DNA of 64,000 nt from positions 124,001 through 188,000 of the forward strand of contig NZ_CP028158.1 of assembly GCF_003030345.1 (NCBI RefSeq), in the 5' to 3' direction. Position 1 is the first letter of the stretch; the number at the start of each line of letters is the position of its first letter. Below the pieces are notes generated by a model. It searched no databases. It was not told where the DNA came from and saw nothing but the letters and a program-made list of their open reading frames with translations. Origin of the DNA: Plantactinospora sp. BC1. GTDB lineage: Bacteria; Actinomycetota; Actinomycetes; Mycobacteriales; Micromonosporaceae. Position numbers and translations under genes: made by a program. This document shows, in pieces, positions 1 to 16,747 of this stretch.

Positions 1-224
1 ACCGCTGGTTCCACCGGCTCCGGCACGGTCAGCGCCACCGCCAGCAGGTACGCCGTCGACGCGCCGCCGGCCCGCTCGGTGAACCAGACGCCCTGCTGGG
101 CCAGGGTCATCGGCACCTCGACCGGCGAACCCGCCACCGCACCGGCTCCGTCGGGTCCGGCGCCGACGACCGGGGCGTGGGCACCGGACGGCTCGGCTGG
201 CAGGAGGTTCGGTGCCTGGGTCAT
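1..224 (-). CDS. Non-ribosomal peptide synthetase, condensation-domain start (partial, 3' end outside window)
   Basis: Only the first 74 codons are in the window. The ATG at 222-224 overlaps the stop of the upstream ligase gene as ATGA, so translation is probably coupled. After a Pro/Ala/Gly-rich leader of about 38 residues the protein reads MTLAQQGVWFTERAGG, which matches the first core motif of NRPS condensation domains (the S/T-x-AQ-x-x-x-W-x pattern), followed by the expected first beta strand (AYLLAVALTV). The protein therefore starts with a C domain and is probably another NRPS module or a free-standing condensation enzyme of the same cluster. What follows the C domain cannot be seen. 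Confidence in the C-domain start is good; the full architecture is unknown. Confidence 0.75.
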   Translation of the reverse strand, partial: MTQAPNLLPAEPSGAHAPVVGAGPDGAGAVAGSPVEVPMTLAQQGVWFTERAGGASTAYLLAVALTVPEPVEPA

Positions 225-1930
225 GGCCTCGCCGTTCTCTCTGGTGCTGCCTCCGGTGGGCAGCCGCTCGGATGCGCCGGAGTCGGGTCGGGCTGGTCGA
301 AGAGCGCCCGCAGGCGCTGTTTGACCACCTTGCCGCCGGCGTTGCGGGGCAGTTCGTCGACGTGGACGATCCGGCTGGGCTGCTCGTGCCCGGCCAGCCG
401 GCTGGCGAGGAACCCGCGTACCTCGGCGAGGCGCAGCGGGCGGGTGGTCACCAGCGCGGCCACCGGGGTGGTCCCGAGTACCGGATCGGGCAGGCCGAAG
501 ACGGCGGCCTCGACGATCTCGGGGTGCTCGTGCAGGGCCGCCTCGACCGCGACCGTGGAGACCTTGTCCGCACCGCTCTTGATGACGTCGCTCTCCCGGT
601 CGACGAGGTAGAGGTAGCCGTCGGCGTCGAGATAGCCGACGTCGCCCATCCGGGTCCAGCCGTCCCGGAACACCCGCCGGGTCGCCGCCGGATCGTCGTG
701 ATAGGACCGCGCGGTACCCGCGGCGCGCAGCCACACCTCGCCGGTCACCCCGGCGGGGCAGGGCCGGCCGGCCTCGTCGCGGACCTGGAGCGCGCCACCG
801 GCGACCACCCTGCCCAGCGCGGCCGGGCGATCGGGCTCGAAGACCACGCTGGTCTGGGTCGGCGCCGCCTCCGTCGAGGTGTAGTAGTTGACGATGGTGG
901 CGCCGGGCAGCGCGGCCGCCAGTCCGGTCGCCACGGCCGGTGGCAGGACGGCGGCGGTCGAGCCGAGCAGCACCACGCTGCTCAGGTCGTACCGCTCCAG
1001 TGCCCCCGAGCGGAGCAGTTCGATCGCCATCGCCGGCACCACGAAGACGCTCCCCACCCCGTGCCGCTCGATCAGCCGGGCGAAGTGGTCCGGGCCGAAC
1101 CGGGCCGTCACCAGCATCCCGGCGTGCGCGTCGAGGGCGTTGAACAGCATGGTCTGACCGGCGTTGGTGCCGATCGGAAAGGCGTGCAGGAACTGCCGGG
1201 AGTGGGCCAGCGCCCGCAGCGGCGGGTCGAGCCGGCAGCCGTGGGTCAGGTTGGCGTGCGTCGCGGTGACCCCCTTGGGTCGACCGGTCGTGCCGGAGGT
1301 GTAGAGGATCTGCGCCGGGTCACCCGGCCGGGGTCCGGCCGTCGGTGCCGCCCCGGGTAGCTCCGCGTCGGGTAGCGCCGCCCCGGGCAGCTCCGCTCCG
1401 GGCAGCTCCGCTCCGGGCAGCTCCGCGTCGGGCAGCCCCGCGACGTCGTCGGGGCCCCAGCGGAGCCGGATCGGCACGTCGGGCAGCTTCGCGGTCGGCC
1501 CGTGCAGCAGCGCCGTCGCTCCACTGTGGTCCAGCATGTACGCCAGTTCCGCCGGGGCGCTGCGGGTGGAGAGCGGCACCGCCACCGCGGCGGCGGCGAG
1601 TACCCCGGTGTAGGAGCAGGCGTACCCGATCCAGTCCTGGGCGCCGTAGAGCAGCCCGACCCGGTCGCCGGGGCGTACCCCCGCCGCCCGCAGCCCGGCG
1701 GCGATCGCCTGGGTCCGGGCCTGCCAGGTGCCCAGGTCGAGGCTGGCCGCGCCCTGGCTGACGGCGACGTGCGACGGTTCGGTGCCGGCCCGGGCGGCGA
1801 GCAGTTGCGGCACGGTCAGCGCGACCCGACCGACCCCGCCCGGCCGACGGCCGACGGTCCGCCGCGCCCCGCCGCCGGTGGCGACGCCGCGTCCCGCACC
1901 GGCGGCGCCCTCGGCCGAGGTGCCGCTCAT
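221..1930 (-). CDS. Class I adenylate-forming enzyme (acyl-CoA/acyl-AMP ligase)
   Basis: This 569-residue enzyme should activate a carboxylic acid with ATP and pass it to CoA or to a carrier protein. The ATP-binding motif is ILYTSGTTGRPKGV (around residue 205), the adenine motif is YYTSTEA, the hinge region contains GDVGYLDADGYLYLVDRESD, and the C-terminal catalytic lysine lies in PRNAGGKVVK. There is no fused carrier domain, so it must load a free or in-trans carrier, possibly as the starter acid of the NRPS line. The ATG at 1928-1930 overlaps the stop of the NRPS/MFS gene (ATGA), and its own stop overlaps the next ATG in the same way. A linker near residues 163-192 is built of LPGAE-like pentapeptide repeats, unusual for the family and probably an expanded surface loop. 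The acid substrate cannot be told from the sequence. Confidence 0.88.
   Translation of the reverse strand: MSGTSAEGAAGAGRGVATGGGARRTVGRRPGGVGRVALTVPQLLAARAGTEPSHVAVSQGAASLDLGTWQARTQAIAAGLRAAGVRPGDRVGLLYGAQDWIGYACSYTGVLAAAAVAVPLSTRSAPAELAYMLDHSGATALLHGPTAKLPDVPIRLRWGPDDVAGLPDAELPGAELPGAELPGAALPDAELPGAAPTAGPRPGDPAQILYTSGTTGRPKGVTATHANLTHGCRLDPPLRALAHSRQFLHAFPIGTNAGQTMLFNALDAHAGMLVTARFGPDHFARLIERHGVGSVFVVPAMAIELLRSGALERYDLSSVVLLGSTAAVLPPAVATGLAAALPGATIVNYYTSTEAAPTQTSVVFEPDRPAALGRVVAGGALQVRDEAGRPCPAGVTGEVWLRAAGTARSYHDDPAATRRVFRDGWTRMGDVGYLDADGYLYLVDRESDVIKSGADKVSTVAVEAALHEHPEIVEAAVFGLPDPVLGTTPVAALVTTRPLRLAEVRGFLASRLAGHEQPSRIVHVDELPRNAGGKVVKQRLRALFDQPDPTPAHPSGCPPEAAPERTARP
1355..1440 (-). repeat. 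15-bp tandem repeat inside the acyl ligase gene
   Basis: About five and a half imperfect 15-bp units, each reading LPGAE, LPDAE or LPGAA in the ligase frame. The period is a multiple of three, so copy-number change would not shift the frame. Confidence 0.8.
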
Positions 1931-4900
1931 CGAGCCGTCACCCGCTCGGTGGCCGCCCGCTGCGCCCCAGCGGGCTGCACCCCACCCGGCTGCGTTCCAA
2001 CCGGCTGCGCCCCAGCGGGCTGCGTTCCGGCCGGCTGCGTTCCACCGGGCTGCGCATCCGACTCCGCCTGGCACCGCGTTCCAGGCTGCGCCCCGGGCTG
2101 CGTTTCGGCGGGCTGGGCGGGCGCGGCCCGGTGGCGCAGCGCCTCCACCCCCACCTGGTCGTCCGGCTGGGCGTCCGGGACCTCGTCGTCGAAGCGGGCG
2201 ATCCGGGGCAGCCGCATCGCCACCAGCGCCACCGCCGCGATGGCGACCGCGAGCAGCAGGTAGAGCAGGCCGATGCCCCGGCCGTGCCCGACCCCGATGA
2301 CCCGGCCGACCGTGCCGGCGAGCCCCCCGTCCGGGGCCATCAGCGGTTCGAGGAGGCGGGAACCGACGGGGCCGACCAGGGTCCAGCCGATCGGCAGGGT
2401 GGACCAGGCGATGACGGTGTTGATCGCGAAGACCCGGCCGTGGAACCGCTGGGGGATCTTGACCTGCACGATCGTGGTGTAGACGCCGTTGAGCAGCACC
2501 AGCCACATCGAGATGCCGAACGCGCCGACCGCGATCACCCACAGCGTCGGCCGCAGGCCGATGACCAGGCAGAAGCCGGCCAGCACCAGCGTGCAGCAGA
2601 GCACGGTGAAGAGCCGGCGATGCCGGGGGCCGCCCCAGATGCTCATCGCCAGGCCGCCGAGGAACGCCCCGACGCCGCCCGCGACCGAGACCTGGGCCAC
2701 CTGGTCGATGCCGGCGAAGGCCAGCACCAGCGGCGTCAGCATCATGAACAGCGGCGACAGGAACACGTTGAGACTCATGAAGAAGAGCAGCAGCGACCGG
2801 AAGCCCCGGTGCCCCCAGGAGAGGCGCAGCCCCTCGCGGATCTCGGCGGTCAGGCTCTCCCGGCGCCGCCACGCCAGGGTCCGGGGGAAGCGCACCAGCA
2901 GCACGATGACGATGGCGGCGGCGTAGCTGAGCACGTCGATCACGAGGATGCCGCCGAGGTCGATCACGGCGAGCAACGCCACCGAGAGCAGCGGCATCAT
3001 GATGGTGGCGACGCCGGTCACCATCTGGACGACCCCGTTCGCGTGCCCGAGGTACTGCTTCGGCACCAACTGCGCGATCGCCGAGTTGTAGGCGAGCCGC
3101 TGGAAGGTGAGCGACACCGACAGCAACGCGATCAGCGGATAGATGTGCCACACCTGGAGCGACCCGGTCCAGAGCAGGACGCCGAGCAGGAGCTGCGTGC
3201 CGCCCGCGCCGACGTCGCCGCAGAGGATCACCGCACGTCTGCTGTACCTGTCGACGACGGCTCCGGCCACCGGCAGCACCAGCAGCCCGGGGACGAGCCC
3301 GGCGACGGCGAGCAGCGCGAAGTTCAGCAGCGACCCGGTCTCCTTGAGTACCCAGAGCGGCAGGGCCACGTCGGTGAGGGTCGAGCCGAGGATGGAGACG
3401 AGCTGGGCGAGCGCGATGACCAGGAAACGCCCCATGCTGGGTTGCGGCCCGGCCGGGGCGACCCGGTCGGCGGACCGGGAGGTGTCGTGCAGCCACCAGG
3501 TCGGCTCTGCACCGCGCGCAGGCCGGGTCAGCGGCTCGGTCCGCTCCGCCAGCACGGCGGAGTCGACGGTGGTGACGATCTCGGCCAGCTCGTCGGCCCG
3601 CCACCTGAGGAAGAAGTGCCCGGCCTCGTCGAGTACGACGACGGCGGCGCGGTCGGTCAGGAAGTGCCACTCGGTGAACCGTTCGGCGTAGAACTCGGTC
3701 GCCGGGTCCCGCTCGCCGGCCACCGTGATGACTGGTGCGCGGAGCCGCTCGGTGCCGGCGTGCATCAGCTGGGTGAAGTACGCCTCGGCGCTGTCGGAGT
3801 CCCGGCGCATGTTCCGGATGATCTGGCGGGCTTGGCCCGGCTCGATGTCGCTCATGTCGACGCCCATCGAGGTCAACCAGTTGGCGTAGACCCGGTCGGA
3901 ACGGAGCGACTCCATCCGGGTCAGCCGGGACAGTGCGGTCCAGACCCGGCTGCGCGGCCGGGCGAACGGGAAGATCGCTCCGATGTAGACGGCGTCGAGG
4001 TCCCGCCCGCGCTGCTCCAGCCGGCGGGCGATCTCGACGGTGAGCGCCGAGCCGACCCCGCAGTGGCCGTAGAGCGCCAGTGGCCCGTCGACCTTTGCCA
4101 GGATCTCCTCGGTGCAGCGCTCGGCCAGTTCGTCGAAGGGGAGTGCGGCCTCGTCCAGGCCGATGTCGTGGCCGGGGATGGCGACGGAGAAGAGCCGGTG
4201 CCCGGCCGGCAGCGCGTCGGCGAGCGGCTGGTAGACCACGGCGCTGCCGCCGCCGTAGGGCACGCAGACCAGGGTGCGTACCCGCTGCGCGGCGGGCACC
4301 GGGCGGGTCAGCTCGTGCACCAGGTCCCGGGGGCCGCGCTGCTCCGGCGGGGCGGCGACGAGCCGGGCCAGCTCGCGTACGGTGCGGTGGGTGAAGAGGT
4401 CCAGCACGGAGACGCCGGCACCGGCGGCCCGGCGCAGCCGCGCGACGACCTGCACGGCGAGCAGCGAGTGCCCGCCGAGGTCGAAGAAGTCGTCGTCGAG
4501 GCCGACCCTCGGCACGTCGAGCACCTCGGCCCAGACCTCCGCGACCAGCACCTCGGTGGCCGTCTCCGGTGCGACGTAGGGGGCGTCGAGGTCGCGCCCC
4601 CGGGGCGGGGCCGGCAACCGCCGCCGGTCCAGTTTGCCGTTCGGGCTCAGCGGCAGCTCGGGCAGCTCGACGAAGGCCGCCGGCACCATGTAGTCGGGCA
4701 GCCGCCGTTTGAGGGCGAGCCGGAGCGCGGCGACATCCACCGGGGCGGACCCGACCAGGTACGCCGCCAGCCGCCGGTCGCCCGGACTCTCCTCGCGGAC
4801 GACGACGGCGGCGTCGCGTATCCCGGGCTGGTCGCGCAGCGCCACCTCGATCTCGCCCAGCTCGATCCGCAGGCCGCGCAGCTTCACCTGCCCGTCGAGC

Positions 4901-7830
4901 CGGCCGAGGAAGTCGAGTGTCCCGTCCGGCCGCCACCGGGCCAGGTCGCCGGTGCGGTAGCGGCGCTCGCCGTCCGGGCCGGTGCCGAACTTCTCGGCGG
5001 TCAGCTCGGGTCGGTTGAGGTAGCCGTGCGCCAGCCCCACCCCGGCCAGGTGCAGTTCGCCCGGTACGCCCACCGGGAGCGGCTCGCCCCGCTCGTCGAG
5101 GACGTACACCCGGATGTTGTCGATCGGTGCGCCGATCGGCACCCGGGCGGCGCCGGTCAGCTTCTCGGCGGTGCAGTGGTACGCGGTGACGTCGATGGCG
5201 GCCTCGGTCGGCCCGTACAGGTTGTGCAGCTCGGTGTCGGGCAGCGCGGCGAGGGCGCGCAGCGCCAGGTCGACCGGGAGTTCCTCGCCGCTACAGACGA
5301 TCCGCCGCAGCGACCGGCACCGTCCGATCCCCTCCTCGGTCAGGAACACCGTCAGCATCGACGGCACGAAGTGCACCGTGCTGACCTGCTCGGCCACGAT
5401 CAGGTCGCGCAGGTAGCCGGCGTCCCGGTGCCCGTCCGGCCGGGCCAGCACCAGCCGGGCGCCGGCCAGCAGCGGCCAGAAGAACTCCCAGACGGAGACG
5501 TCGAAGCCGGCCGGTGTCTTCTGCAGCACGGTTTCCGTCGCGGTCAGGCCGTAGCGGCGCTGCATCCAGTGCAGCCGGTTGACCACGCCGCGGTGGCCGT
5601 TGAGCACCCCCTTGGGCTGCCCGGTCGAGCCGGAGGTGTAGATCACGTAGGCGGGGTCGTCCGGGCCGGCCAGCGGTTCGGGGGCGGTGCCGGGAGCGCC
5701 CGCCCAGTCGGCCGGGTCGTCGAGGGCCAGCACCGGCCGGTCGGTCGGCGGCAACGCGGTCGCAGCCGCCCCGGCGGTGAGTACGGCCACCGGGTCGGCG
5801 TCGGCGAGCATGAAGCCGAGCCGTTCGGCCGGGTGGTCCGGATCCAGCGGCAGGTACGCCGCACCCGAGACGAGTACGCCGAGCAGCGCGACGACCAGCT
5901 CCGGGCTCCGGTGTGCGCAGACCGCGACCAGCCGCCCCGGCCCGGCGCCGTGTTCGCGCAGCCGGTGGGCGACCCGGTTCGCCCGCTCGGCCAGCTCCCG
6001 GTAGCTCAGCGTCGTCCCCTCGAAGGTGACGGCCGGCGCCTCCGGGGTGGCGGCGGCGCTGGCCTGGACCAGCTCGTGCAGGGTCGCCTGCTCCGGGAAG
6101 TCGGCGGCGGTGTCGTTCCAGGTGACCAGTACCTCTTCCCGGGCCGCTCCGCCGAGGGCGAGCAGGCGGTGCAGCGGCCGGTCCGGGTCGCGGGCGACCT
6201 CGTGCACGAACTCGACGAAGGTGTCGGCGATCCGTTCGACCGTCTCGGCGTCGAAGAGGTCGCGGCGGTAGACGAAGGCGCCGGAGAGCGTCTCCCCGGC
6301 CAGCAGGTCCAGCTCCAGGTCGAACCGGGTCGCCACCGCCTCGACGACGAAGGGCGCCACCGAAAGCGCGGTGTTCGCGCCGCCCGGGGAGGGCGGGGAG
6401 ACCGGTGACGGCGCGGCGGGGGTCCGCATCGAGAGCGCGACCTGGAAGATCGGCGAACGGCCGACGTCGCGCGGCACGTCCAGCTCGGTGACCAGCTCCT
6501 CGAACGGCAGCTCCTGGTGGGCGTACCCGTCCAGCACGGTGTCCCGGACCCGGGCGACCAGCTCGGGAAAGCTCGGGTCGCCGCTGGTGTCGACCCGGGT
6601 GACCAGCATGTTGACGAACATGCCGATCATCGGCTCCAGCTCGGCATGGCTGCGCCCGGCCTGCGGTGACCCGACGGCGAAGTCGTGCTGCCGGGCGAAC
6701 CGGGCCAGCACCGCCGCGTAGGCGGCGAGCACCACCATGAAGAGGGTGGCGCCGTGGTCCAGCGCCAGCCGGCGCAGCGCCGCCGTCGACCCGGCGTCCA
6801 GGTGCACGCCGACCGGCGCGCCCCGGAAGGTCGGCTCCGCGGGGCGCGGCCGGTCGGTCGGCAGCTCCAGCGGGGGTACCCCGGACAGCCGGGTCCGCCA
6901 GTAGCCGACGTCGCGGTCCCGGGTACCGTCGGCGAGCCGCTGCCGCTGCCGTTCCCGCTGCCAGAGCGCGTAGTCGCCGTACTGCCGCCGCAGCGGCGGG
7001 AGGGGAGCGGCCGGGGTGCCCCGCCCGGCGTCACCGGCGGCGGCGAGCAGGGTGAGCACCTCGCCGACGAGCAGCTCGGCCGACCAGCCGTCGCAGACGA
7101 TGTGGTGCACGGTGAGCGCGAGTACGTGGTCGTCGGGATCGACGGCGTAGAGGGCGGCGCGCAGCAGCGGACCCCGGGCCAGGTCGAACGGTTCGGCCAG
7201 CCGGGCCTGGACGGCAGTACGCACCCACGCCTCCCGAGCCGCCAGGTCGGCACCGGCCGCCTCGACCACCTCCAGCCGGATCGACACGGTGTCGTCGATG
7301 CGCAGTACCGGCCGGCCGTCGGCGGTGGCGTCGAAGCGCATCCGCAGGCTCTCGTGCCGCGCCGCGACCGTCCGGAGGGCGGCCTCCAGCGCGGTCGCGT
7401 CGAGCGTCCCGCGCAGCCGGAGTACCACCGGGACGGTGTACGCGGCGGTGCCGGGCGCGTACTGCTCCATGAACCAGAGCCGCTCCTGGGCGAACGAGAG
7501 CGGCACCGTGGTCCCCGGCGGCCGGGCCGGGACGACCTCGGCCGGCGCGGCCGCCGGCCTGAGCCGGGCGGCGAGCAGCGACCGTTTGGTGGCGGAGAGC
7601 TGGCCGGGAACGCCGGCGGTGGCGGTGCCCGGCGGGGTAGTGCTCGACGGGGTAGTGCTCGGCGTGGCGCTGGCTGGCGTGGCGGTGGCTGGCGTGGCGG
7701 TGGCTGGCGTGGCGGTGGCTGGCGTGGCGGTGGCTGGCGTGGCGGTGGCTGGCGTGGCGGTCTCCGCCCGGCGCGGGCCCGCGATGCCGGGCTCCGGTGC
7801 GGCCGGGGGCGGCTGGATGCGGCCGGTCAC
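1927..7830 (-). CDS. NRPS module C-A-T-TE fused to an MFS transporter
   Basis: This 1967-residue protein joins a complete NRPS termination module to a transporter. In order: a Thr/Pro repeat linker (about 24-55); a condensation domain (about 108-540, HHIVCDGWS near 247); an adenylation domain (about 560-1070, YTSGSTGQPKGV near 730); a carrier domain with GGHSLLAV near 1118; a thioesterase with GHCGVGSA near 1257; and 12 or so membrane segments of MFS type (about 1465-1872), then a QPxGx repeat tail. My manual reading of the specificity code is D-V-W-H-V-S-L-I-D-K, the pattern known for serine. The thioesterase has Cys where Ser is usual, with Asp (GERDP) and His (EAGHF) candidates to complete a triad. 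The start is GTG at 7830, overlapping the stop of the preceding NRPS (GTGA). The peptide may be released next to its exporter at the membrane. Domain calls are firm; the serine call is an inference from motif alignment. Confidence 0.93.
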   Translation of the reverse strand: MTGRIQPPPAAPEPGIAGPRRAETATPATATPATATPATATPATATPATATPASATPSTTPSSTTPPGTATAGVPGQLSATKRSLLAARLRPAAAPAEVVPARPPGTTVPLSFAQERLWFMEQYAPGTAAYTVPVVLRLRGTLDATALEAALRTVAARHESLRMRFDATADGRPVLRIDDTVSIRLEVVEAAGADLAAREAWVRTAVQARLAEPFDLARGPLLRAALYAVDPDDHVLALTVHHIVCDGWSAELLVGEVLTLLAAAGDAGRGTPAAPLPPLRRQYGDYALWQRERQRQRLADGTRDRDVGYWRTRLSGVPPLELPTDRPRPAEPTFRGAPVGVHLDAGSTAALRRLALDHGATLFMVVLAAYAAVLARFARQHDFAVGSPQAGRSHAELEPMIGMFVNMLVTRVDTSGDPSFPELVARVRDTVLDGYAHQELPFEELVTELDVPRDVGRSPIFQVALSMRTPAAPSPVSPPSPGGANTALSVAPFVVEAVATRFDLELDLLAGETLSGAFVYRRDLFDAETVERIADTFVEFVHEVARDPDRPLHRLLALGGAAREEVLVTWNDTAADFPEQATLHELVQASAAATPEAPAVTFEGTTLSYRELAERANRVAHRLREHGAGPGRLVAVCAHRSPELVVALLGVLVSGAAYLPLDPDHPAERLGFMLADADPVAVLTAGAAATALPPTDRPVLALDDPADWAGAPGTAPEPLAGPDDPAYVIYTSGSTGQPKGVLNGHRGVVNRLHWMQRRYGLTATETVLQKTPAGFDVSVWEFFWPLLAGARLVLARPDGHRDAGYLRDLIVAEQVSTVHFVPSMLTVFLTEEGIGRCRSLRRIVCSGEELPVDLALRALAALPDTELHNLYGPTEAAIDVTAYHCTAEKLTGAARVPIGAPIDNIRVYVLDERGEPLPVGVPGELHLAGVGLAHGYLNRPELTAEKFGTGPDGERRYRTGDLARWRPDGTLDFLGRLDGQVKLRGLRIELGEIEVALRDQPGIRDAAVVVREESPGDRRLAAYLVGSAPVDVAALRLALKRRLPDYMVPAAFVELPELPLSPNGKLDRRRLPAPPRGRDLDAPYVAPETATEVLVAEVWAEVLDVPRVGLDDDFFDLGGHSLLAVQVVARLRRAAGAGVSVLDLFTHRTVRELARLVAAPPEQRGPRDLVHELTRPVPAAQRVRTLVCVPYGGGSAVVYQPLADALPAGHRLFSVAIPGHDIGLDEAALPFDELAERCTEEILAKVDGPLALYGHCGVGSALTVEIARRLEQRGRDLDAVYIGAIFPFARPRSRVWTALSRLTRMESLRSDRVYANWLTSMGVDMSDIEPGQARQIIRNMRRDSDSAEAYFTQLMHAGTERLRAPVITVAGERDPATEFYAERFTEWHFLTDRAAVVVLDEAGHFFLRWRADELAEIVTTVDSAVLAERTEPLTRPARGAEPTWWLHDTSRSADRVAPAGPQPSMGRFLVIALAQLVSILGSTLTDVALPLWVLKETGSLLNFALLAVAGLVPGLLVLPVAGAVVDRYSRRAVILCGDVGAGGTQLLLGVLLWTGSLQVWHIYPLIALLSVSLTFQRLAYNSAIAQLVPKQYLGHANGVVQMVTGVATIMMPLLSVALLAVIDLGGILVIDVLSYAAAIVIVLLVRFPRTLAWRRRESLTAEIREGLRLSWGHRGFRSLLLFFMSLNVFLSPLFMMLTPLVLAFAGIDQVAQVSVAGGVGAFLGGLAMSIWGGPRHRRLFTVLCCTLVLAGFCLVIGLRPTLWVIAVGAFGISMWLVLLNGVYTTIVQVKIPQRFHGRVFAINTVIAWSTLPIGWTLVGPVGSRLLEPLMAPDGGLAGTVGRVIGVGHGRGIGLLYLLLAVAIAAVALVAMRLPRIARFDDEVPDAQPDDQVGVEALRHRAAPAQPAETQPGAQPGTRCQAESDAQPGGTQPAGTQPAGAQPVGTQPGGVQPAGAQRAATERVTAR
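1958..2052 (-). repeat. 15-bp repeats encoding a QPxGx tail on the NRPS/MFS protein
   Basis: Degenerate 15-bp units read as TQPAG, AQPVG, TQPGG and VQPAG near the C-terminus of the NRPS/MFS fusion, after the last membrane segment. The tail is probably disordered and cytoplasmic. Confidence 0.75.
7672..7761 (-). repeat. Six perfect 15-bp tandem repeats encoding a Thr/Pro linker
   Basis: The unit GGCTGGCGTGGCGGT is present six times in a row without change, with degenerate copies beside it. On the minus strand it reads TATPA repeated. It forms the N-terminal linker of the NRPS/MFS protein, ahead of the C domain. Confidence 0.95.
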
Positions 7831-10800
7831 GGTGCCCCCGTCCGGGCGGCGGCGAGTTCTGCCGCCGCCTCGTCCTCGGTGAGCCGGTCGATCTCGGCGA
7901 CGAGTGCCGCCTCGACCGCGCGGGCGAAGCCGGCGACGGTGGGATGCTGGAACAGCAGCCGCACCGGCAGGTCCAGGCTGACGGCCGCCCGCAGCCGGGC
8001 GATCACCCGGACGGCGAGCAGCGAGTGCCCGCCGAGGGCGAAGAAGTCGTCGGCTGCGCCGACCCGGTCGACCGGGAGCAGCTCGGCGAAGATCCCGGCG
8101 ACCAGTTCCTCCGCGTCGGTCCGGGGTGCCTCGAACGCGACCCGGGCCTCGTCGACGATCGACGGCACCGGCAGCGCCGCCGTGTCGACCTTGCCGTGCG
8201 GGGTCAGCGGCAGCGCGGCCAGCGGCACCAGCACGCTCGGCACCAGCGGCGCGGGGAGCCGCTCGGCGGCGTGGGCCCGGACCTCGGCCACGGCGGAGGT
8301 GCCGGTCACGTACCCGACCAGCGTCTCGCCGAGCGCGGTGACCACGGCCTGGCCCACCTCCGGGTGCCCGGTCAGCACCGCCTCGACCTCGCCCGGCTCG
8401 ACCCGTACCCCGCGTATCTTGAGCTGCCGGTCGAGGCGGCCGAGGAACTCGAGTACGGGTTCGTCCCGGCGCCAGCGGGCCCGGTCGCCGGTGCGGTAGA
8501 GCCGCCCGCCGCCGTACGGGTCGGGGCGGAACCGCTCGGCGGTCAGGTCGGGCCGGCCGAGATAGCCGTCGGCGAGCCCGGCACCGGCCAGGCAGAGTTC
8601 ACCGACCGCCCCCCGGGGCACGAGCCGCCCCGCCTCGTCGAGCAGGTACGCCCGGGCCCCGCCGACCGGGCGCCCGATCGGTGGCCGGCGAGCGGTGTCG
8701 GCGGCCCCGAGGTCGATCGCGGTGGCGATGATCGTCGCCTCGGTCGGCCCGTACGTGTTGGTCAGCCGGATCCGGTCGCCGTGCCGGTCGCGCCAGCGGG
8801 CGACCGCCGTCGCGTCCACCTGTTCACCGCCGAGGATCACCAGCCGCAGCGCGGCCGGCCAGTCCGGTACGAGGCCCAGCAGCTCCTGCCAGTACGCGGT
8901 CGGCAGGTCGAGTACCGTGATCGCCGGGTCGGCGGCGAGCAGTTCCGGCAGCGACTGTGCACCGTCGGGGAGCAGCACCAGGGTGCCGCCGGTGGCCAGG
9001 GTGGGCCAGATCTCCTCGGCGTGGGTGTCGAAGCTCGGCTCGGCGAACTGCACGACCCGGTCGGTGCCGGTCAGCCGGTAGGCGTCGATCATCCAGCCGA
9101 CGCGTGCGGCCAGGGCGGCGCGGCCGACGAGCACCGGTTTCGGAGTTCCCGTCGAGCCGGAGGTGAAGAGGACGTAGCCGGGGTCGGGCACCCGGGTCGG
9201 CGCGGTCGAGCCGGGCCGGAGACCCTCGACGGTGAGTACGGCGGCGACGGCGGCCTGCTCGACCAGCGCCGCCCGGCGCCGGGGCGGCAGTCCCGGGTCG
9301 ACCGGCAGGTAGCCGGCGCCGACCCGCCAGGTCGCCAGCAGGGCGACGACCAGGTCGGGGCCGCGCGGCAGGTTCACCCCGACGAGCTGGCCGGGCCGGA
9401 CCCCGGCGGCCCGCAGCGCGTCGGCCAGCTCGCCGGCACGTGCCCAGAGTTCCCGGTAGCTGACCTGGTCGGCGCCGCTGACCAGGGCGATCGCCTCGGG
9501 TGTGGTGTCGACCGCCCCGGCGATGCGGGCGAGCAGCGGCGGGCCGTCGGCGAGGACCGGGCCGGTGCCGATCCGGGTCAACTCGGCCCGGGCCGCCTCG
9601 TCGACCAGCGGTAGCGCCCGGACCGGAGTGTCCGGGTCGGCCAGCACGGCGCGCAGCACGGCGCCGAACCGGTCGGCCAGCTCGTCGGCGGTGGCCGGGT
9701 CGAACAGGTCGGCGCTACAGGTGAGCAGGATGTCCATCCGGACGTCGTCGGACCGGCTGTTGATCGCCGTCGAGCTGACGAAGACGTCCATGGCGACGTC
9801 GGTGACGGTGCGCCGCGACCCCTCCCCGAACGCCTCGACGGTGAGCCCCTGGAAACCCTCGAAGCCGGTCGCCGAGACGTCCATCGTGGAGTGCAGGGTG
9901 AAGGCGGCCTGGAAGAGCGGGTTGCGGCCCGGGTCGCGCGGCAGGTCGAGGTCGGCGACGAGCTGCTCGAACGGGATCTCCTGGTGGGCGAAGGCGGCCA
10001 GGCAGGTCGCCCGGGTCCGCAGCACCAGGTCGCGCAGCGTGACGTCACCGGAGAGGTCGCCGCGGAGCACCAGCATCCGGGTGAAGTAGCCGAAGACCGA
10101 CTCCGCCGCCACGTCGTCGCGGCCGGCGACCGGGGTACCGACACAGATGTCGTGCTGACCGCTGGCCTGCGCCAGGGTCAGTTGGTAGACCGTCATCAGC
10201 AGCATGAACGGGGTGCAGCGCAGGTGCCGTGCCGCCTGTTGCACCGAGGTCCACAGCTCGGCGCCGCACCCGCGGACCACCGCAACGCCCGCCGAGGTGC
10301 GTACCGCCGGGCGTGGCCGGTCCAGCGGCAGTTCGAGTACCGGCGGCCGGGCCAGCGCCGTCCGCCAGTAGCCGAGCGCCGCCTCGTCAACGGCCTGCGC
10401 GGAGCGGGCGTGGTCGAGGTAGCGCAGGCCGGGGGCGGCGGGTTCGACTCCCCGGTACGCCTCGGCGACCTGCCGGTAGAGCAGGTTCATCGACCAGCCG
10501 TCCCCGACGATGTGGTGCACGGCGGTGCAGAGCACGTGTCTGCGCGCGTCGAGGCGCAGCAGGCCGACCCGGATCAGATGCCCCTCGGCGAGGTCGAACG
10601 GGCGGCCGATCAGCTCCTCGACGGCCCGCCGGGCCTCGTCCTCGCTCGACACCTCGACCAGCCGTACGGGTGTCGGCCGTGCCGCCAGCACCTCCTGGAC
10701 CGGTACGCCGCCGGACTCGACGAACCGGGTCCGCAGGCTCTCGTGCCGGGCGATCACGGTGTCGAGGGCGCCGACCAACCGCTCGACGTCGAGGTCGCCC

Positions 10801-10913
10801 CGGAGCAGCACCGTGGTGGAGACGGTGTACGCGGGGTCGCCCGGGTCGAGCCGGTCGAGGAACCAGAGGCGCCGCTGTGCCGGGGTCAGCGGTGCCCGAT
10901 CGTGTTCAGCCAT
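7827..10913 (-). CDS. NRPS module, condensation-adenylation-carrier (C-A-T)
   Basis: This 1028-residue single module should add one amino or hydroxy acid to the growing chain and hand it to the next synthetase. The condensation domain runs from about residue 8 to 430, with HHIVGDGWS near 133 holding the catalytic His. The adenylation domain covers about 455-900 and the carrier about 910-1000, with GGHSLLAV near 964. The adenylation domain is atypical: the phosphate loop reads TSGSTGTPKPVLV, with Pro in place of the usual Gly, and the A4 region is FDTHAEEIW, so Glu takes the position normally held by Trp. My manual specificity reading, D-T-E-L-I-G-T-I-I-K, matches no code I know. The A10 lysine (TPHGKVD) is present. 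The ATG at 10911-10913 overlaps the HAD gene end by 8 nt. Substrate unassigned. Confidence 0.93.
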   Translation of the reverse strand: MAEHDRAPLTPAQRRLWFLDRLDPGDPAYTVSTTVLLRGDLDVERLVGALDTVIARHESLRTRFVESGGVPVQEVLAARPTPVRLVEVSSEDEARRAVEELIGRPFDLAEGHLIRVGLLRLDARRHVLCTAVHHIVGDGWSMNLLYRQVAEAYRGVEPAAPGLRYLDHARSAQAVDEAALGYWRTALARPPVLELPLDRPRPAVRTSAGVAVVRGCGAELWTSVQQAARHLRCTPFMLLMTVYQLTLAQASGQHDICVGTPVAGRDDVAAESVFGYFTRMLVLRGDLSGDVTLRDLVLRTRATCLAAFAHQEIPFEQLVADLDLPRDPGRNPLFQAAFTLHSTMDVSATGFEGFQGLTVEAFGEGSRRTVTDVAMDVFVSSTAINSRSDDVRMDILLTCSADLFDPATADELADRFGAVLRAVLADPDTPVRALPLVDEAARAELTRIGTGPVLADGPPLLARIAGAVDTTPEAIALVSGADQVSYRELWARAGELADALRAAGVRPGQLVGVNLPRGPDLVVALLATWRVGAGYLPVDPGLPPRRRAALVEQAAVAAVLTVEGLRPGSTAPTRVPDPGYVLFTSGSTGTPKPVLVGRAALAARVGWMIDAYRLTGTDRVVQFAEPSFDTHAEEIWPTLATGGTLVLLPDGAQSLPELLAADPAITVLDLPTAYWQELLGLVPDWPAALRLVILGGEQVDATAVARWRDRHGDRIRLTNTYGPTEATIIATAIDLGAADTARRPPIGRPVGGARAYLLDEAGRLVPRGAVGELCLAGAGLADGYLGRPDLTAERFRPDPYGGGRLYRTGDRARWRRDEPVLEFLGRLDRQLKIRGVRVEPGEVEAVLTGHPEVGQAVVTALGETLVGYVTGTSAVAEVRAHAAERLPAPLVPSVLVPLAALPLTPHGKVDTAALPVPSIVDEARVAFEAPRTDAEELVAGIFAELLPVDRVGAADDFFALGGHSLLAVRVIARLRAAVSLDLPVRLLFQHPTVAGFARAVEAALVAEIDRLTEDEAAAELAAARTGAP

Positions 10914-11655
10914 GACGTGCCCGCCCCCCGTGGACCGGCTCCGGGACGGCGGGTCCCAGCAGGCGGTCCAGCAGTCGCGGCAGCTCCGGGTGCTGCCAGT
11001 CCGGGAAGACCGCCGCCGCTCCGGCCGCCCCGATCCTCTCCAGGTAACCCCGGTCCGGCACGGTGGGCATCGCCACCACCGGACTGCCGGCCGACCGGGC
11101 GGCGGTGATGCCGGTGACCGAGTCCTCGAAGACCAGTTGACTCGCCGGGGGGACACCGAGCCGTCGCGCCGTTTCCCGGTAGACGTGCGGCGCCGGCTTC
11201 AGCTCCGGTACGTCCCGCGCCGTCACCACCCGGTCGGCGCCGAAGAGCGGGAGCAGCCCCGCCCGGCGCAGGATCCGCAGCGCGGTCCCGCGTTCGGTGA
11301 CGGTGCCGACGGCCATCGGGACACCCCGACCAGCCAGCCGGTGCACGATTTCGGCCACACCGCTGCGCGGCACGATCTCGTCGACGGCACCGACCAGCGA
11401 AGAGAAGTACCGGCGCTTCGCCGCGAGCACCTCGGCCGGCGAGACCCCGGTGCCGGACAGCGCCGCGACCTCCGCCGCCAGCCGGGCGTCGGGGCCGCCG
11501 ACGAAGTGCGGGAGCCGGTGCAGCGCCTCGTCCCAGCTGAGCACGACGCCGACCTCCCGGGCGGCCCGCAGTAGGGCGTCGTGGTGGAACCGTTCCAGGT
11601 CGACCAGGGTTCCGTCGAGGTCGAAGGCGACCGCCGACGGCCGGCTGCCCGTCAC
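10906..11655 (-). CDS. HAD-superfamily phosphatase (subfamily IA)
   Basis: This 249-residue protein starts with FDLDGTLVD, the HAD nucleophile motif with both catalytic Asp residues, followed by a helical cap and then motif II (GTVTERGTAL), the Lys region (ELKPAPHVY) and motif IV (VFEDSVTGI). It belongs to the phosphoglycolate phosphatase / beta-phosphoglucomutase type. In this cluster, between a glycosyltransferase and NRPS genes and near a sugar-phosphate isomerase, it probably dephosphorylates or isomerises a sugar phosphate. I chose the GTG at 11655 because it overlaps the glycosyltransferase stop as GTGA and places DLDGTL near residue 11, as is normal. A role as a general housekeeping phosphatase cannot be excluded. 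Confidence 0.88.
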   Translation of the reverse strand: MTGSRPSAVAFDLDGTLVDLERFHHDALLRAAREVGVVLSWDEALHRLPHFVGGPDARLAAEVAALSGTGVSPAEVLAAKRRYFSSLVGAVDEIVPRSGVAEIVHRLAGRGVPMAVGTVTERGTALRILRRAGLLPLFGADRVVTARDVPELKPAPHVYRETARRLGVPPASQLVFEDSVTGITAARSAGSPVVAMPTVPDRGYLERIGAAGAAAVFPDWQHPELPRLLDRLLGPAVPEPVHGGRARHG

Positions 11656-13010
11656 CGCCGGCCACCAGGCGGCGCGGACCCGAGGTCGGGTGGTGCCGCC
11701 GTCGCCGACCCGGGGTGGGTGAGCCGGACGACGGCCATCTCGTCGTCCTGGTAGGAGATGACGGCGGAGTAGCGGGGCGTGAGCATGTCGAGGAGATAGT
11801 CCAGGTCGTCGAGCATGCCGATCCCGTCGGCCGGGTCCCGGCGGAGCCCCTTCGACAGCACCAGCAGCGCCACCCCGGCGATGCGGAGGCTGTCCAGGAT
11901 CAGCGCGGAGAGGTCGATCGGGGTGAGCATGCGCCACAGGTCGAGGTGCACGACGTAGTCGAAGGAGCCGTCCGGGTACGGCGTCCGGACGCCGAACAGG
12001 TGCGGGTTCTCCGGCCCGTACGCGACGGCGTGGTCGATGCCGGTGATCCGGCCGGCCGACGCCGCCGTGCCGACGTCGTACCCGATCCAGAGACTGCTCG
12101 CCGCGTCCGGCAGGCCGACGGCCTTGCGCACGGCGTCGCCGGTGACCCGGGCCGGATGGTCCCGGACGAACTCCCGGCACTCCTCGTAGAACGGCAGCGT
12201 CCGGGCGACCCGGCGGTGGTTGTCCGACGGGTGGGTGAAGAACTCGACGTCGTAGTGCCGGTATTTCTCGACGAGGTACGGCAGGACCGGCTTGGTCTTC
12301 TCCCACTCGGTCGCCCAGTCCCGGAAGTGCGGGGTGTGGTAGCAGAGGGCGTCCGGGTCGTAGCGGAAGCGGCTGCTGTCCCGACCGAAGTGCCGGTAGA
12401 TCCGGTAGGTGAAGTCGGTGTCCTCGTATCCCCACTGCACGAACGCCTCGTCGAAGCCACCGACCTGGAGGTAGAGCTCGCGGGGGAGCGAGAGGTTGTG
12501 CGTGAAGCCGAACATCCAGCCGGTACGCCGGTAGACGTCGAAGCCGCCGCCGGCCCGCCCCGGCAGGTCGCGGTGGTCGCCCTCCATCGGCAGCAGGTCG
12601 GCCTCGTCGGGTATCGCCTGCCGCAGCCGGGCGAACGTTCCCCAGCTCGGCTCGATCCGCCGGCCGTAGACGACCTCGACGCACGCCCCGCCGGACCGGC
12701 GCAGGTGCCGTTCCACCAGGTCCGGGGCGGCGTAGGAGTCCGCGTCCATCAGCAGCAGCAGATCGGCCCGGGACCGGGCCACCCCGGAGTTCCGGGCCGC
12801 CGACCGCCCCCGGTTGGTGTCGTGCCGGACGTACCGCAGTCGCAGGTCGGCCTCGTGCCGGCGGACCACCGCGCGGACGTCCTGGACCGAGGCGTCGTCG
12901 ACCACGATCACCTCGAACCGGTCCCGGTCGGCGGTCTGCCGGGCGAGCGACCCGAGGGTCAGGTCCAGGCAGCTGACCTGGTTGTAGGTCGGCATGATCA
13001 CGGAGAGCAC
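11652..13010 (-). CDS. Family 2 glycosyltransferase with methyltransferase-like C-terminal region
   Basis: The 452-residue protein begins with a GT-A fold: SVIMPTYNQ at the N-terminus, VVDDAS for nucleotide binding, LLLMDADSY as the DxD-type metal motif, and WGYEDTDFTYR as the ED motif of chondroitin-polymerase-like GT2 enzymes. It should transfer a sugar from a nucleotide donor. Residues about 300-430 look like a class I methyltransferase fold: a motif I-like stretch (LWIGYDVGT) followed by ITGID and PDGSFDYVVHLDLWRML. Motif I is degenerate (not the usual G-x-G-x-G), so this part may be non-catalytic. The start is GTG at 13010, one base after the preceding stop. The acceptor (peptide or sugar) is not known. 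Confidence 0.85.
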   Translation of the reverse strand: MLSVIMPTYNQVSCLDLTLGSLARQTADRDRFEVIVVDDASVQDVRAVVRRHEADLRLRYVRHDTNRGRSAARNSGVARSRADLLLLMDADSYAAPDLVERHLRRSGGACVEVVYGRRIEPSWGTFARLRQAIPDEADLLPMEGDHRDLPGRAGGGFDVYRRTGWMFGFTHNLSLPRELYLQVGGFDEAFVQWGYEDTDFTYRIYRHFGRDSSRFRYDPDALCYHTPHFRDWATEWEKTKPVLPYLVEKYRHYDVEFFTHPSDNHRRVARTLPFYEECREFVRDHPARVTGDAVRKAVGLPDAASSLWIGYDVGTAASAGRITGIDHAVAYGPENPHLFGVRTPYPDGSFDYVVHLDLWRMLTPIDLSALILDSLRIAGVALLVLSKGLRRDPADGIGMLDDLDYLLDMLTPRYSAVISYQDDEMAVVRLTHPGSATAAPPDLGSAPPGGRR

Positions 13011-13011
13011 G

Positions 13012-14448
13012 TCAGGCTCCCCGGTGTGCGTGCAGGGTCGGCGTGGCGATCCCGACGAGGTCGGCCACCCGGTCGACGTCGAGGTCACCGGCGTCGAGCA
13101 GCTCGATCAGCACGAGTTCCAGCCCGGCCAGCAGCCTGCCGGCGTCGGCGGCCGGCAGGCGGCGGCTGTCGGCGAAGAGTTCGAGGACGGCGCGGGAGCG
13201 CAGCGACCTGACGTGCAGGTACAGCGTCAGCCGCTCGCTCTCCCGGCCCTCCAGCTCGGAGACCACGGTGGCCGCGGTCAGCTCGCGCAGCTCGGCGACG
13301 CCGAGCGGCGCCGGAGGCGGCCCCGCGACGCCGGGTTCGGGTACCACGTTCACGGTGCTCGCCAGGTCGATGTCGACACCCCGCCGGGTCTGCACCTCCG
13401 CCAGCAACCGCGCGACGTCCCGGGGGTCGCTCTGCCCCCGCAGGTACGCCAGCGTCGAGGCCCGGTGCGCGGCGCGGAGGGTGCCGGCCAGCGAGCCGCC
13501 GTCCACCTTGATCAGTGCCGGGGCGCCCTGGTAGAAGGTCCCCACCGAGGCGGCGTCGCCCGGGGTGAACCGGTTGCCCCCGGCGAGGAAGAGCGGCACC
13601 TCCCGGGTACCGGTCCGGACGCCGATGATCGTGGCGAGCGCGCCGAGCAGGACGGCGGCCGGCCCGACCCGGTGGCGTACCGAGACCGCCCGTACGGCCG
13701 CCGCCAGCGCCACCGAGTGCAGGCCGACGCCGGGGAAGAGCGGGCTCCCGCCCGGCCCCGGCGGCCCGGGAAAGGCGGTCGGCGGCATGCTCTCCAGCAC
13801 CCGGCGCCAGTAGGCGAGGGCGAGCTCGTTGGTCCGGCGGCCCGACGCCGACGCCTCGTAGCCGGCCCGGGCCAGCGGCTGCCAACCTGCGGCCGGCGCG
13901 GCGCGGTCGTCGCGGAGCAGGTCGAGGAACTCCCGGCGGAGCACGAAGCAGCCCCAGGAGTCGGCGGCGAGGTGGGAGAGGACGAAGACGACCTGCCGGG
14001 GGCGGCCACCGGCGGCGACGAGGCTCACCCGCAGCGGCCACTCGTCGTCGTGCCGGAACGGCTGCCGCCAGAGCCGTTCCTCGGCCTGCTCGGCAACCCG
14101 GCGTACCCGGCCGGGCTCGGTCTCGCAGATCTCCACCGGCAGGTCGCCGGCCCGGTCGCAGTGCTGCCGGGGCTCGCCGTCCGGGTCGACGGTGAACCGG
14201 GTCCGCAGCGCCTCGTGGCGGCCGACGAGGGTGTGCAGCGCGGTCAGCACCCGCTCCCGGGTGACGTCGCCCGGCAGGTGCACCCGGAACCGGATGTTGA
14301 GGTAGTGGTTGGCCGGGGCCAGCGACTCCAGGATGTCCCAGACGAAGCGCTGTCCCCAGGTCAGCTCGGCGCTGCCCCCGTCCAGCCCGGTGAACTCCAG
14401 CGTCGACCGCTCGCGGCGCGGCGCGTCGGCTGTCCCGTCGCCGGTCAT
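13012..14448 (-). CDS. Free-standing condensation-domain protein
   Basis: This 478-residue protein is a single condensation domain without adenylation or carrier parts. The first core is LTWGQRFVWDILES, followed by the usual GRHEALRTRF. The active-site region reads SHLAADSWG, aligning with HHxxxDG: the second His and the Asp are kept, while the first His is Ser and the Gly is Ser. Stand-alone C domains can join a carrier-bound chain to a free amine or alcohol, here perhaps the sugar or amine made by neighbouring genes. The ATG overlaps the methyltransferase stop as ATGA and the stop lies one base before the glycosyltransferase GTG, so it is part of the same operon. An inactive or acyl-shuttling role is also possible. 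Confidence 0.85.
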   Translation of the reverse strand: MTGDGTADAPRRERSTLEFTGLDGGSAELTWGQRFVWDILESLAPANHYLNIRFRVHLPGDVTRERVLTALHTLVGRHEALRTRFTVDPDGEPRQHCDRAGDLPVEICETEPGRVRRVAEQAEERLWRQPFRHDDEWPLRVSLVAAGGRPRQVVFVLSHLAADSWGCFVLRREFLDLLRDDRAAPAAGWQPLARAGYEASASGRRTNELALAYWRRVLESMPPTAFPGPPGPGGSPLFPGVGLHSVALAAAVRAVSVRHRVGPAAVLLGALATIIGVRTGTREVPLFLAGGNRFTPGDAASVGTFYQGAPALIKVDGGSLAGTLRAAHRASTLAYLRGQSDPRDVARLLAEVQTRRGVDIDLASTVNVVPEPGVAGPPPAPLGVAELRELTAATVVSELEGRESERLTLYLHVRSLRSRAVLELFADSRRLPAADAGRLLAGLELVLIELLDAGDLDVDRVADLVGIATPTLHAHRGA

Positions 14449-15506
14449 GACGCCTCGGCGGTCGGGTCGGTGCCGACACGGCGGTAGAGCAGGAACCAGT
14501 CACCGGCCCCGACGAGTTCGCGTACGTCGGGGTCGGCGATGGTGGGTTCGCGGGCCGCCAGGACGTAGCCGTGGCGCGCGAGTACCGGGGCGAAGTCCCG
14601 CCGGAGGTAGTCGTCCTCCAGGCTGAGCAGCCGGTCGCCCTCGTTCGGCACGATCAGCAGCGTGGGTACGCCGCATCGGGCCAGCAGGTCGATCCAGGCC
14701 TCGATCGCCGCGATCGGCATCTCCGAGAAGCTGTGCACGTTGACGGCCAGGTCGGGCCGCTCGGCCGCCAGCCGCTCCGCCATCTCGTCGAGGCGCAGGA
14801 CCACCGCCTTCGGCTCGACCCTGCGGTGTCGCAGGTAGTGCTCGCTGAGGAAGGTCGACTCCGGGATCGCGTCGACACAGAGATAGCGCTTCAGGCCGGG
14901 AACGCTCTCCACCATCCGGTGGGCGAGGCGGCCGTACCCGGCGCCGATGTCGACGACGGTGAAGTCGGTCCTGGAGAGCAGCCCCCAGTGCCGGTCCAGG
15001 AAGTAGATCTCGTTGATCGAGTCGAGCAGGTCCCGGCTGGCCGTCGGCAGGCTCTCGAAGTCGAACGTCCAGCAGCCGAACGCGCCGTCCTCGGTGGTCC
15101 GGTCGAGCAACTTGTGCGTGTCGAGCGAGCTGACGTACCGGGCGAAGAGGAAGAACTTCAACCGGGCGTTGTCGCCGAGCTGGCGCAGCTGCCAGACGTA
15201 GGCGTTGTCGCCACGGAAGTACCGGAGGTCGAGGTCGCGCAGGCGCCGGCTCCGCCGCCAGAACCGGCCGGGCCGGAACGGCGACGCCAGCTCCCGGTAG
15301 CGCCTCCGGAGCTGCACCAGGTCCGGGTTCCGGTCGTGCAGCAGCGCGGCCAGCTCGGCGGGGAGCGGTCGGGAGTCGTCGTACCGCCCGTGGCCGGCGT
15401 GGATCCGATAGCTGGTGATCTCGGTGGAGGTCCGCGTCAGGGTCAGCCCGAAGAGGCCGACGAGGTAGCGAACGGTGAGGAAGAGCCTAGAACTGACGTG
15501 GTTCAC
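14445..15506 (-). CDS. Putative sugar O-methyltransferase (SAM-dependent)
   Basis: The protein has the SAM motif VVDIGAGYGRLAHRM with the acidic residue after the next strand (LCVDAIPE), and the overall pattern of the putative sugar O-methyltransferase family: a long N-terminal helical region containing NPDLVQLRRRY and an ERPDLAVNVHSFSEM block. It probably methylates a hydroxyl of the sugar or of the sugar-peptide product. I prefer the GTG at 15506 because GAGAAGG lies 11 nt upstream; an in-frame GTG at 15542 would add 12 residues. Either start lies within the end of the isomerase gene (15487), so the two are translationally linked. Substrate not determinable from sequence. Confidence 0.8.
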   Translation of the reverse strand: MNHVSSRLFLTVRYLVGLFGLTLTRTSTEITSYRIHAGHGRYDDSRPLPAELAALLHDRNPDLVQLRRRYRELASPFRPGRFWRRSRRLRDLDLRYFRGDNAYVWQLRQLGDNARLKFFLFARYVSSLDTHKLLDRTTEDGAFGCWTFDFESLPTASRDLLDSINEIYFLDRHWGLLSRTDFTVVDIGAGYGRLAHRMVESVPGLKRYLCVDAIPESTFLSEHYLRHRRVEPKAVVLRLDEMAERLAAERPDLAVNVHSFSEMPIAAIEAWIDLLARCGVPTLLIVPNEGDRLLSLEDDYLRRDFAPVLARHGYVLAAREPTIADPDVRELVGAGDWFLLYRRVGTDPTAEAS

Positions 15507-16197
15507 CGCGCTCGCCAACCTTCTCGCGTTCCGCCCCGGCACCGGCCGGCCCGTCGTCGGCGGCAGCGGCGCTGAATCGGCAGGCGTCGCCGCCGCGCAG
15601 CACGCGTACCGCCATGTGCCCGAGGGCGACGTGCAGGTCCTCGGTCAGGCCGTAGTCCGCCTGGCCGAAGACGACGAGCCGGTCCGCGAGCCGCGCCACC
15701 TCACCGGCGTTGCCGAGCGCGGCCAGCACGGTCATCCCGAGGTCACGGCCGACCCGGGCCGCCCGGACCAGGTTGGTCGAGTGACCGCTGACGCTCAGCA
15801 GCAGCAGTGCGTCGCGCGGCCTGCCCCAGCCGGTCAGCTGCCGGGAGAAGATCTCGTCGTAGCAGTGGTCGTTGGCGATCGCGGTGATCCGGGCGATGTT
15901 CTCGGTCAGCGCCACGACCTGGGGCGCACCGCCCAGGGTGCCCGCCGCCGCCATCAGGTCGCTGGCGATGTGGATCGCCGCCGTGCTGCTGCCGCCGTTG
16001 CCGGCCACGAAGACCCGGCGACCCGAGTGCAGGGTGAGGACCAGGGTCTCCAGCAGGTCGGTCACCGAGCCGGTCTCCAGCTGGGCCAGCGCCAGCGTCA
16101 GGTCGTCGACGTACTGCTTGACCACGGTTTCGGCGCCGGTGGGTGCGGGGACCGGCCCGGCTGCCGGATCGAGCCGCTCGCCCGGGTGGACGGTCAT
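15487..16197 (-). CDS. SIS-domain sugar-phosphate isomerase, GmhA-like
   Basis: This 236-residue protein resembles sedoheptulose-7-phosphate isomerase. The phosphate-binding SIS motif is VFVAGNGGSSTAAIHIASDL and the second SIS stretch is SVSGHSTNLVRAA. A C-terminal TEDLHVALGHM block matches the helix that carries the catalytic His in GmhA. The residue equivalent to the GmhA catalytic Glu appears as Asp (ASDLM), so activity may be altered. It is the first gene of the minus-strand biosynthetic operon and follows a 550-bp non-coding stretch. GmhA-type genes in natural-product clusters usually signal heptose or related sugar supply, which fits the glycosyltransferase, phosphatase and O-methyltransferase downstream. 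The true substrate could be another phosphosugar. Confidence 0.82.
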   Translation of the reverse strand: MTVHPGERLDPAAGPVPAPTGAETVVKQYVDDLTLALAQLETGSVTDLLETLVLTLHSGRRVFVAGNGGSSTAAIHIASDLMAAAGTLGGAPQVVALTENIARITAIANDHCYDEIFSRQLTGWGRPRDALLLLSVSGHSTNLVRAARVGRDLGMTVLAALGNAGEVARLADRLVVFGQADYGLTEDLHVALGHMAVRVLRGGDACRFSAAAADDGPAGAGAEREKVGERGEPRQF

Positions 16198-16747
16198 CGG
16201 TATTCGGCGGCGGGGGAGCGCCCGAATTGCACGGACGCACCGCATTCGGTGTTGCTTTCGGATAACCGCCGGAGACCCCGTTCCGGGGTGTGCGGCGCAA
16301 TTATGGCCGCCGATAGTCCGACCAACGCAGGCTCCTCCTCGACACGTTGTGCGAGGACGGTGACAGACCGCAGCGCTGCGCCAGGTCGCCGTTCCCCCGT
16401 GACCCGTGTGGAAGATAACAACCATCGATGGGTACGGCAACCCCGCGATTGTGCGTCCCGGGGCCGGCCTGGGCATCTTCCATCGTGCTACCAGCGACCC
16501 GTGACGGCGGTATATCGAGATTGGACGATTCGCGCCCGCTCGGTCCCGAAATAGACCGGTGCCCGCCGTGCGGTGCGGAATGCGCCCGGAATTTGGGTGT
16601 CCACCCCGCCCTCGGACCGATCCGGAATCGCTGTCCGGCACATTTTGTCGAATGCCGGGCAACGCTCCCGCTGGCCGACGGTCCGGTCGGTTACGGCTTG
16701 GTGGGATTTACGATAGGGAGGACTGGCCCGGCGGCCGGGTGCGGCGC
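16198..16747. promoter_or_regulatory. Intergenic region with the presumed promoter of the NRPS operon
   Basis: A 550-bp stretch between the isomerase start and the stop of the phosphodiester glycosidase gene. I see no protein family in any frame. It is less GC-rich than its surroundings and should hold the leftward operon promoter. A short inverted repeat (ACCCCG, TTC, CGGGGT) lies at 16275-16289, about 80 bp upstream of the isomerase ATG. No -10/-35 pair can be named with confidence. Confidence 0.4.

Follow-up and report, generated by a model that had tools for sequence, protein, structure and literature searches.

Within the window analysed here, a 64,000-nucleotide stretch of the Plantactinospora sp. 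BC1 genome (8.33 Mb, one contig), the minus strand at 1927..7830 carries a single open frame whose 1967-amino-acid product joins a terminal nonribosomal peptide synthetase (NRPS) module to a transporter of the major facilitator superfamily (MFS). The fusion is real and is conserved in actinomycetes. An NRPS terminator and a putative exporter are found in one chain, and the likeness of the release domain, a cysteine thioesterase, to those of ObiF and SulM adds to the interest; from these features we infer the function. The protein is probably the final module of a short NRPS line, to which the exporter of that line's product is covalently attached.

The fusion gene and its distribution

Along the frame Pfam places Condensation, AMP-binding, PP-binding, Thioesterase and MFS_1, in that order, so that the first four domains (condensation, C; adenylation, A; carrier, T; thioesterase, TE) make up a complete NRPS termination module in a single chain. 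The condensation domain (residues 108-562; 6145..7509), in which an HHIVCDG motif is readable, is followed by the adenylation domain (residues 589-1066; 4633..6066), with the specificity code DVWHVSLID, and by a carrier domain with a GGHSL site (residues 1096-1158; 4357..4545). Next come the thioesterase (residues 1185-1419; 3574..4278), a linker (residues 1420-1465; 3436..3573) in which a TWWL stretch forms a short strand in the model, and the MFS part (residues 1466-1880; 2191..3435), recognised by Pfam and by its fold model, with NCBIfam matches below cut-off. The original prediction, made from the sequence alone, placed C-A-T-TE and an MFS transporter in one polypeptide and proposed a domain search; the single frame and the fold model bear it out, the search returned all five domains in the expected order, and there is no stop codon hidden at the TE-MFS junction. 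What it overlooked is the most informative part of the protein, the ObiF1/SulM-like Cys thioesterase.

The join is widespread. A TE-MFS query of genome contigs, with patterns drawn from TE, linker and MFS and hence biased towards fused forms, found both parts in one frame at 68 of 69 loci, the remaining one (L074) stopping inside the gene at a contig end; homologues are thus far from always being split at the junction, as the original prediction had allowed that they might be. Its suggestion of a survey of how often such fusions occur can now be answered for the host's taxonomic family, in which 99 of 200 genomes match the TE-MFS profile at E 1e-60 and at least 80 of the 200, the window's own included, carry the TE-MFS span in a single stop-free frame (a hand count, with ids checked for repeats). 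In two of these (G602 and G442) the frame consists of TE and MFS only, and of the other 19 matching genomes G454 and G466 are fused on reading, the rest being MFS-only, partial or not among the matches listed. At class level there are 37 matches, the window's included, in 23 of 393 genomes at E 1e-120, a threshold itself biased towards full-length matches; all 37 span TE and MFS, in stop-free frames of 1268-4022 amino acids. At phylum level few genomes have the full span: 2 of 396, out of seven that match. All of these survey counts are lower bounds, with five candidates scored per genome for the family and two for the class and phylum. At least four named families have members with the same join, and a plasmid search found it on replicons of Streptomyces clavuligerus and Embleya as well. 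The nearest named relatives by fusion gene are from Catellatospora (87-88% over about 700 amino acids). No second TE-MFS copy was seen in the source genome with the TE-MFS query, the next listed matches being MFS-only at E 1e-18 or weaker.

The thioesterase and the terminal adenylation code

The putative catalytic residues of the thioesterase are Cys1257 (codon 4060-4062), Asp1375 and His1405, as judged from alignment. When aligned with ObiF1, SulM and two of our own NRPS thioesterases, the catalytic Asp is absent at triad position I and present at position II, and the window TE thereby appears to share both the Cys nucleophile and the Asp-at-II layout of the ObiF1/SulM type. The Cys is found in the window TE and in 89 of 91 family TEs, a count that excludes L104, L116-L119 and L123-L125; outside it, a simple pattern look finds GHC in L118, L119, L123, L124 and L125, and not in L116 or L117.

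ObiF1, the obafluorin synthetase of Burkholderia diffusa (PDB 6n8e), makes a beta-lactone and ends in an MbtH-like domain where the window protein has its transporter (PMC6668435). It is the best PDB match of the window TE by sequence, and ObiF1 and SulM are the top two fold matches of the TE model. The nucleophile elbow is one residue longer than usual, GHC-G-V-G rather than G-x-C-x-G (GHCAG in ObiF1), in the window and in most relatives, 13 of the 91 lacking the extra residue. The amino acid handled by ObiF1 is beta-hydroxy-homophenylalanine, whereas we take the window's DVWHVSLID to be a Ser code. The TE of SulM, the sulfazecin enzyme (PDB 8w2c, 8w2d), is a beta-lactam maker that carries a Gln-Cys-Asn motif, and the SulM system also includes a diaminopropionate module and, in its cluster, a sulfotransferase (PMC11298585); the window protein has neither that motif nor that module, showing GHCGVG and DVWHVSLID instead, and library scans named no sulfotransferase among the cluster genes they covered.

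A different view of the chemistry, which we hold to be possible though clearly the less probable one, is that of a simple hydrolase or a type II-like editing enzyme: the TE would release a linear acid, and its Cys would have drifted from Ser. Only the chemistry is at issue here, and the MFS half could still be the exporter; the likelihoods given to the readings are therefore not meant to add up to one. It draws on the sequence comparison with PDB, in which the type II thioesterase BorB (6vap, E 1e-16) comes second and outscores SulM (E 1e-11), on the structural neighbours that follow ObiF1 and SulM, which are RifR and other type II thioesterases (the TE having been folded alone, since the match list of the full TE-MFS model was all MFS chains), and on a published tree that clusters even SulM and ObiF1 with type II thioesterases (PMC11298585). 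In our own TE tree, which ends in an open fork at this point, the fused TEs group firmly with neither ObiF1 nor SulM, and in L026 and L065, sister sequences inside the fused clade, Ser replaces the Cys; this pair offers a natural comparison for release chemistry. Type II thioesterases are free-standing, however, and this TE is fused inside an NRPS, in cis behind the last T domain. Further, the Cys-to-Ser mutant of ObiF1 yields hydrolysed acid only (PMC6668435), so that a Cys kept in nearly all of the family TEs suggests a non-hydrolytic reaction.

Terminal codes differ over the fused family. Among 85 terminal A domains, some of them copies of each other, 26 are Ser-type, 47 read DFTKxGHVG (presumably Asp-like), five have other LTK/FTK codes, four DM[GA]EIGAVD, two DTEDIGTVI and one DLYNMSLIW (presumably Cys-like). 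A beta-lactone is possible for the Ser-type members; given this variety it cannot be the rule across the family.

The transporter half, its linker and its unfused relatives

The MFS half matches MFS_1 above the gathering score, is predicted to adopt the MFS fold, is full length and keeps the invariant loop residues; its model matches MFS transporters well, and by sequence it has no PDB match at E 0.01. An MFS transporter of 12 helices has its N-terminus in the cytosol, which puts an attached TE at the membrane, and the placing of the assembly line there by the original prediction is supported to that extent.

In a tree of 95 MFS domains, L086 and the full set of 88 fused proteins fall into one clade (support 100/99). 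The analysis was repeated with 54 rows and additional outgroups, and there two changes are required for the fused label, a gain and the loss in L086; the trees have midpoint roots and long outgroup branches. The TE-MFS join probably arose once. In L086 (9440-9760) the frame switches between TE and MFS at the linker; in the tree it lies next to the fused L084, inside the fused clade, and its split reflects either a later break or an error in the sequence. Apart from L086, 15 unfused relatives were read, of which 11 adjoin NRPS or polyketide synthase (PKS) genes (L092-L097, L103, L105, L120-L122), so that the association of this MFS group with assembly lines probably predates the fusion. In five of the 11 (L092, L093, L120, L121 and L122) the MFS gene comes directly after a gene ending in carrier and NAD_binding_4 domains, that is, after a reductase-terminated NRPS or PKS. 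For the other four (L099-L102) the flanking DNA examined shows no clear NRPS neighbour, the contig of L099 being short and L101 having one A-like match nearby.

That the MFS half serves mainly as a membrane anchor or scaffold, with product export secondary or left to another transporter, we regard as unlikely. Its model would be the cereulide synthetase, whose production of cereulide requires tethering to the membrane by the transporter CesCD (PMC7527721), and a linker that is long and variable would suit it (HMM boundaries in 88 proteins give 15-151 residues, the upper figure being exaggerated by a truncated TE match in L026). The same variability makes a rigid channel from TE to pore unlikely. 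A mere anchor would hardly be expected to stay full length with its invariant loop residues and a good match to MFS transporters, and covalent anchoring is impossible for the unfused relatives that lie beside NRPS or PKS genes. The cereulide synthetase, tethered in trans by an ABC transporter, is nonetheless the nearest functional counterpart: in both cases an NRPS is held at the membrane by a transporter, as suggested here by the covalent join, but there the proteins are separate and make contact through a condensation domain (PMC7527721), and here there is one MFS polypeptide.

Slightly less likely again is a self-resistance pump that exports or excludes a different compound and is fused for co-expression only. 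The closest named NCBIfam models, drug pumps (Mef) plus EntS, are in keeping with such a pump; the MFS half scores far below all their cut-offs (51.5 bits against 324 for the EntS equivalog NF007792). For the H+ antiporter model TIGR00900 (2A0121) it reaches 192.9 bits, short of the curated 319.6. By HMM, EntS and the TIGR00900/MFS_3 exporters belong to the same broad MFS group, and they differ from the window protein in standing alone. Against this reading, the persistence of a single-clade fusion across differing terminal codes is what would be expected if the MFS half were linked to release.

That a sequencing or assembly error or a chance join fused two genes has next to no chance and is rejected, for the frame breaks in L086 and L123 (in the latter within the TE) are outweighed by one frame at 68/69 loci, at least 80/200 family genomes and 37/37 class matches, by the identical join in several named families and by the nesting of L086 beside a fused copy. 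In the linkers of close homologues third codon positions differ most in eight of eight and length is kept in seven of eight, amino-acid changes being frequent as well.

Proposed mechanism

We favour, as the probable course of events, release through a Cys-acyl-enzyme, most likely by ring closure; the terminal module would be tethered to the membrane, and its MFS half would export the product. The A domain, with its Ser-type code, would charge the T domain with its amino acid and the C domain would join this to the upstream acyl-peptide. The chain would then pass to Cys1257 of the ObiF1/SulM-like TE, and attack by an internal nucleophile would free the peptide, most likely as a closed ring. With the TE attached at the N-terminal end of an MFS protein of 12 helices, release should occur at the inner face of the membrane, beside the inward-facing opening of a presumably proton-coupled exporter. 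The fusion would set a 1:1 ratio and raise the local product concentration, with no sealed tunnel. We infer in this way ring closure and ring size, export of the cluster's own product, a benefit of proximity and the coupling of release to export.

Several further observations weigh against this proposal. The unfused relatives adjoin NRPS genes as separate genes, so the fusion is not essential; the closest NCBIfam exporter models all fall short of their cut-offs; and the varying terminal codes allow no single ring type for all members. The gene for the Gly-type module described below lies downstream of the TE gene, and gene order is therefore not colinear. Two loci from two genomes with similar gene neighbourhoods (L116, 6542-8815, and L117, 6319-8625) encode two-domain TE-MFS proteins that nest in the fused clade. 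Their nucleophile motif reads GHS or GHG instead of GHC, and the flanking DNA examined, about 6 kb on either side, contains no further NRPS domain. Given these two, the MFS half may be useful without a working Cys-TE; they may also be offshoots of the fused family that are decaying or have taken on another use.

The surrounding gene cluster

Nine minus-strand genes make up the cluster as read. The first encodes an SIS-domain protein (15487..16662, an open frame with its true start probably inside; GmhA-like by weak scores below cut-off), and it is followed by genes for a putative NanM-like sugar O-methyltransferase (14445..15542), a stand-alone condensation-like protein (13012..14448), a family 2 glycosyltransferase (GT2; 11652..13088) and a HAD-family hydrolase (11067..11640, approximate ends), all five identified in library scans. 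Then come an NRPS C-A-T module (7827..10913; Pfam) with the code DTEDIGTII, the NRPS/MFS gene, a stand-alone AMP-forming acyl ligase (221..1930) and the start of another C-A-T module (1..224) that runs on past the window edge in L001; we take its code, DILQLGVIW, to be Gly-type. The NRPS/MFS gene has 4-base overlaps on both sides, its start with the stop of the upstream NRPS gene and its stop with the start of the ligase gene. Library scans of the nine genes recognised no further transporter, the Gly-type module beyond the window having been read only with C/A/T models of our own.

The SIS protein, HAD, GT2 and NanM-like methyltransferase genes (11067-16662) are sugar-type tailoring genes adjoining the NRPS. 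Close relatives (63-80%) of GT2, HAD and the condensation-like gene are present in all six loci L012-L017, and neither GT2 nor HAD was found in the examined flanks of four Catellatospora loci (L008-L011), which indicates that tailoring genes vary around a common NRPS core. GT2 and HAD are common to the window, Actinacidiphila, Catenulispora and one Micromonospora locus. In Microbispora (L034, 3033-6234), genes for 2-oxoacid dehydrogenase-type subunits (E2 by Pfam, the others by eye) lie beside the fused NRPS, possibly as an acyl supply. The NRPS/MFS protein has tandem repeats of 15 bases in its N-terminal tail (7661-7761) and its C-terminal tail (1955-2055), and the AMP ligase has them as well (1347-1442). 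We attribute the long plus-strand open frames opposite the fusion gene, such as 2131-6408, to GC-rich coding sequence on the other strand.

Relation to known systems and significance

Another protein type that holds an MFS carrier and an adenylate-forming enzyme in one chain is LplT-Aas (NF006386, acyl-ACP--phospholipid O-acyltransferase). It has its MFS part at the N-terminus and serves lipid remodelling, unlike the NRPS of the window, and the NF006386 model scores far under its cut-off with both the window MFS part (24.9 bits) and the A domain of L034 (140.9 bits). Database names of the form NRPS/MFS transporter exist, none of which turned up in this analysis. No paper on an NRPS thioesterase fused to an MFS transporter was recognised in the open-access PMC literature, a scope beyond which most subscription journals and preprints lie; this is consistent with the original prediction, which knew of no mechanistic work.

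Release and export of nonribosomal peptides are usually studied separately, and here evolution has joined them, once according to the trees, making the fusion a simple test case for their coupling in cis, a marker for possibly strained-ring peptides and a natural route to a membrane-placed NRPS. Its TE is of a type known from makers of beta-lactones and beta-lactams, in a fusion common in one bacterial family. It is conceivable, if rather doubtful, that we are dealing with a widespread actinobacterial class of terminators in which the Cys-TE closes a reactive strained ring at the membrane (in Ser-type members an N-acyl-serine beta-lactone) and the MFS half expels the product before it can acylate the cell's own proteins. 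If true, this would explain why exactly such a type of TE is fused to an exporter.
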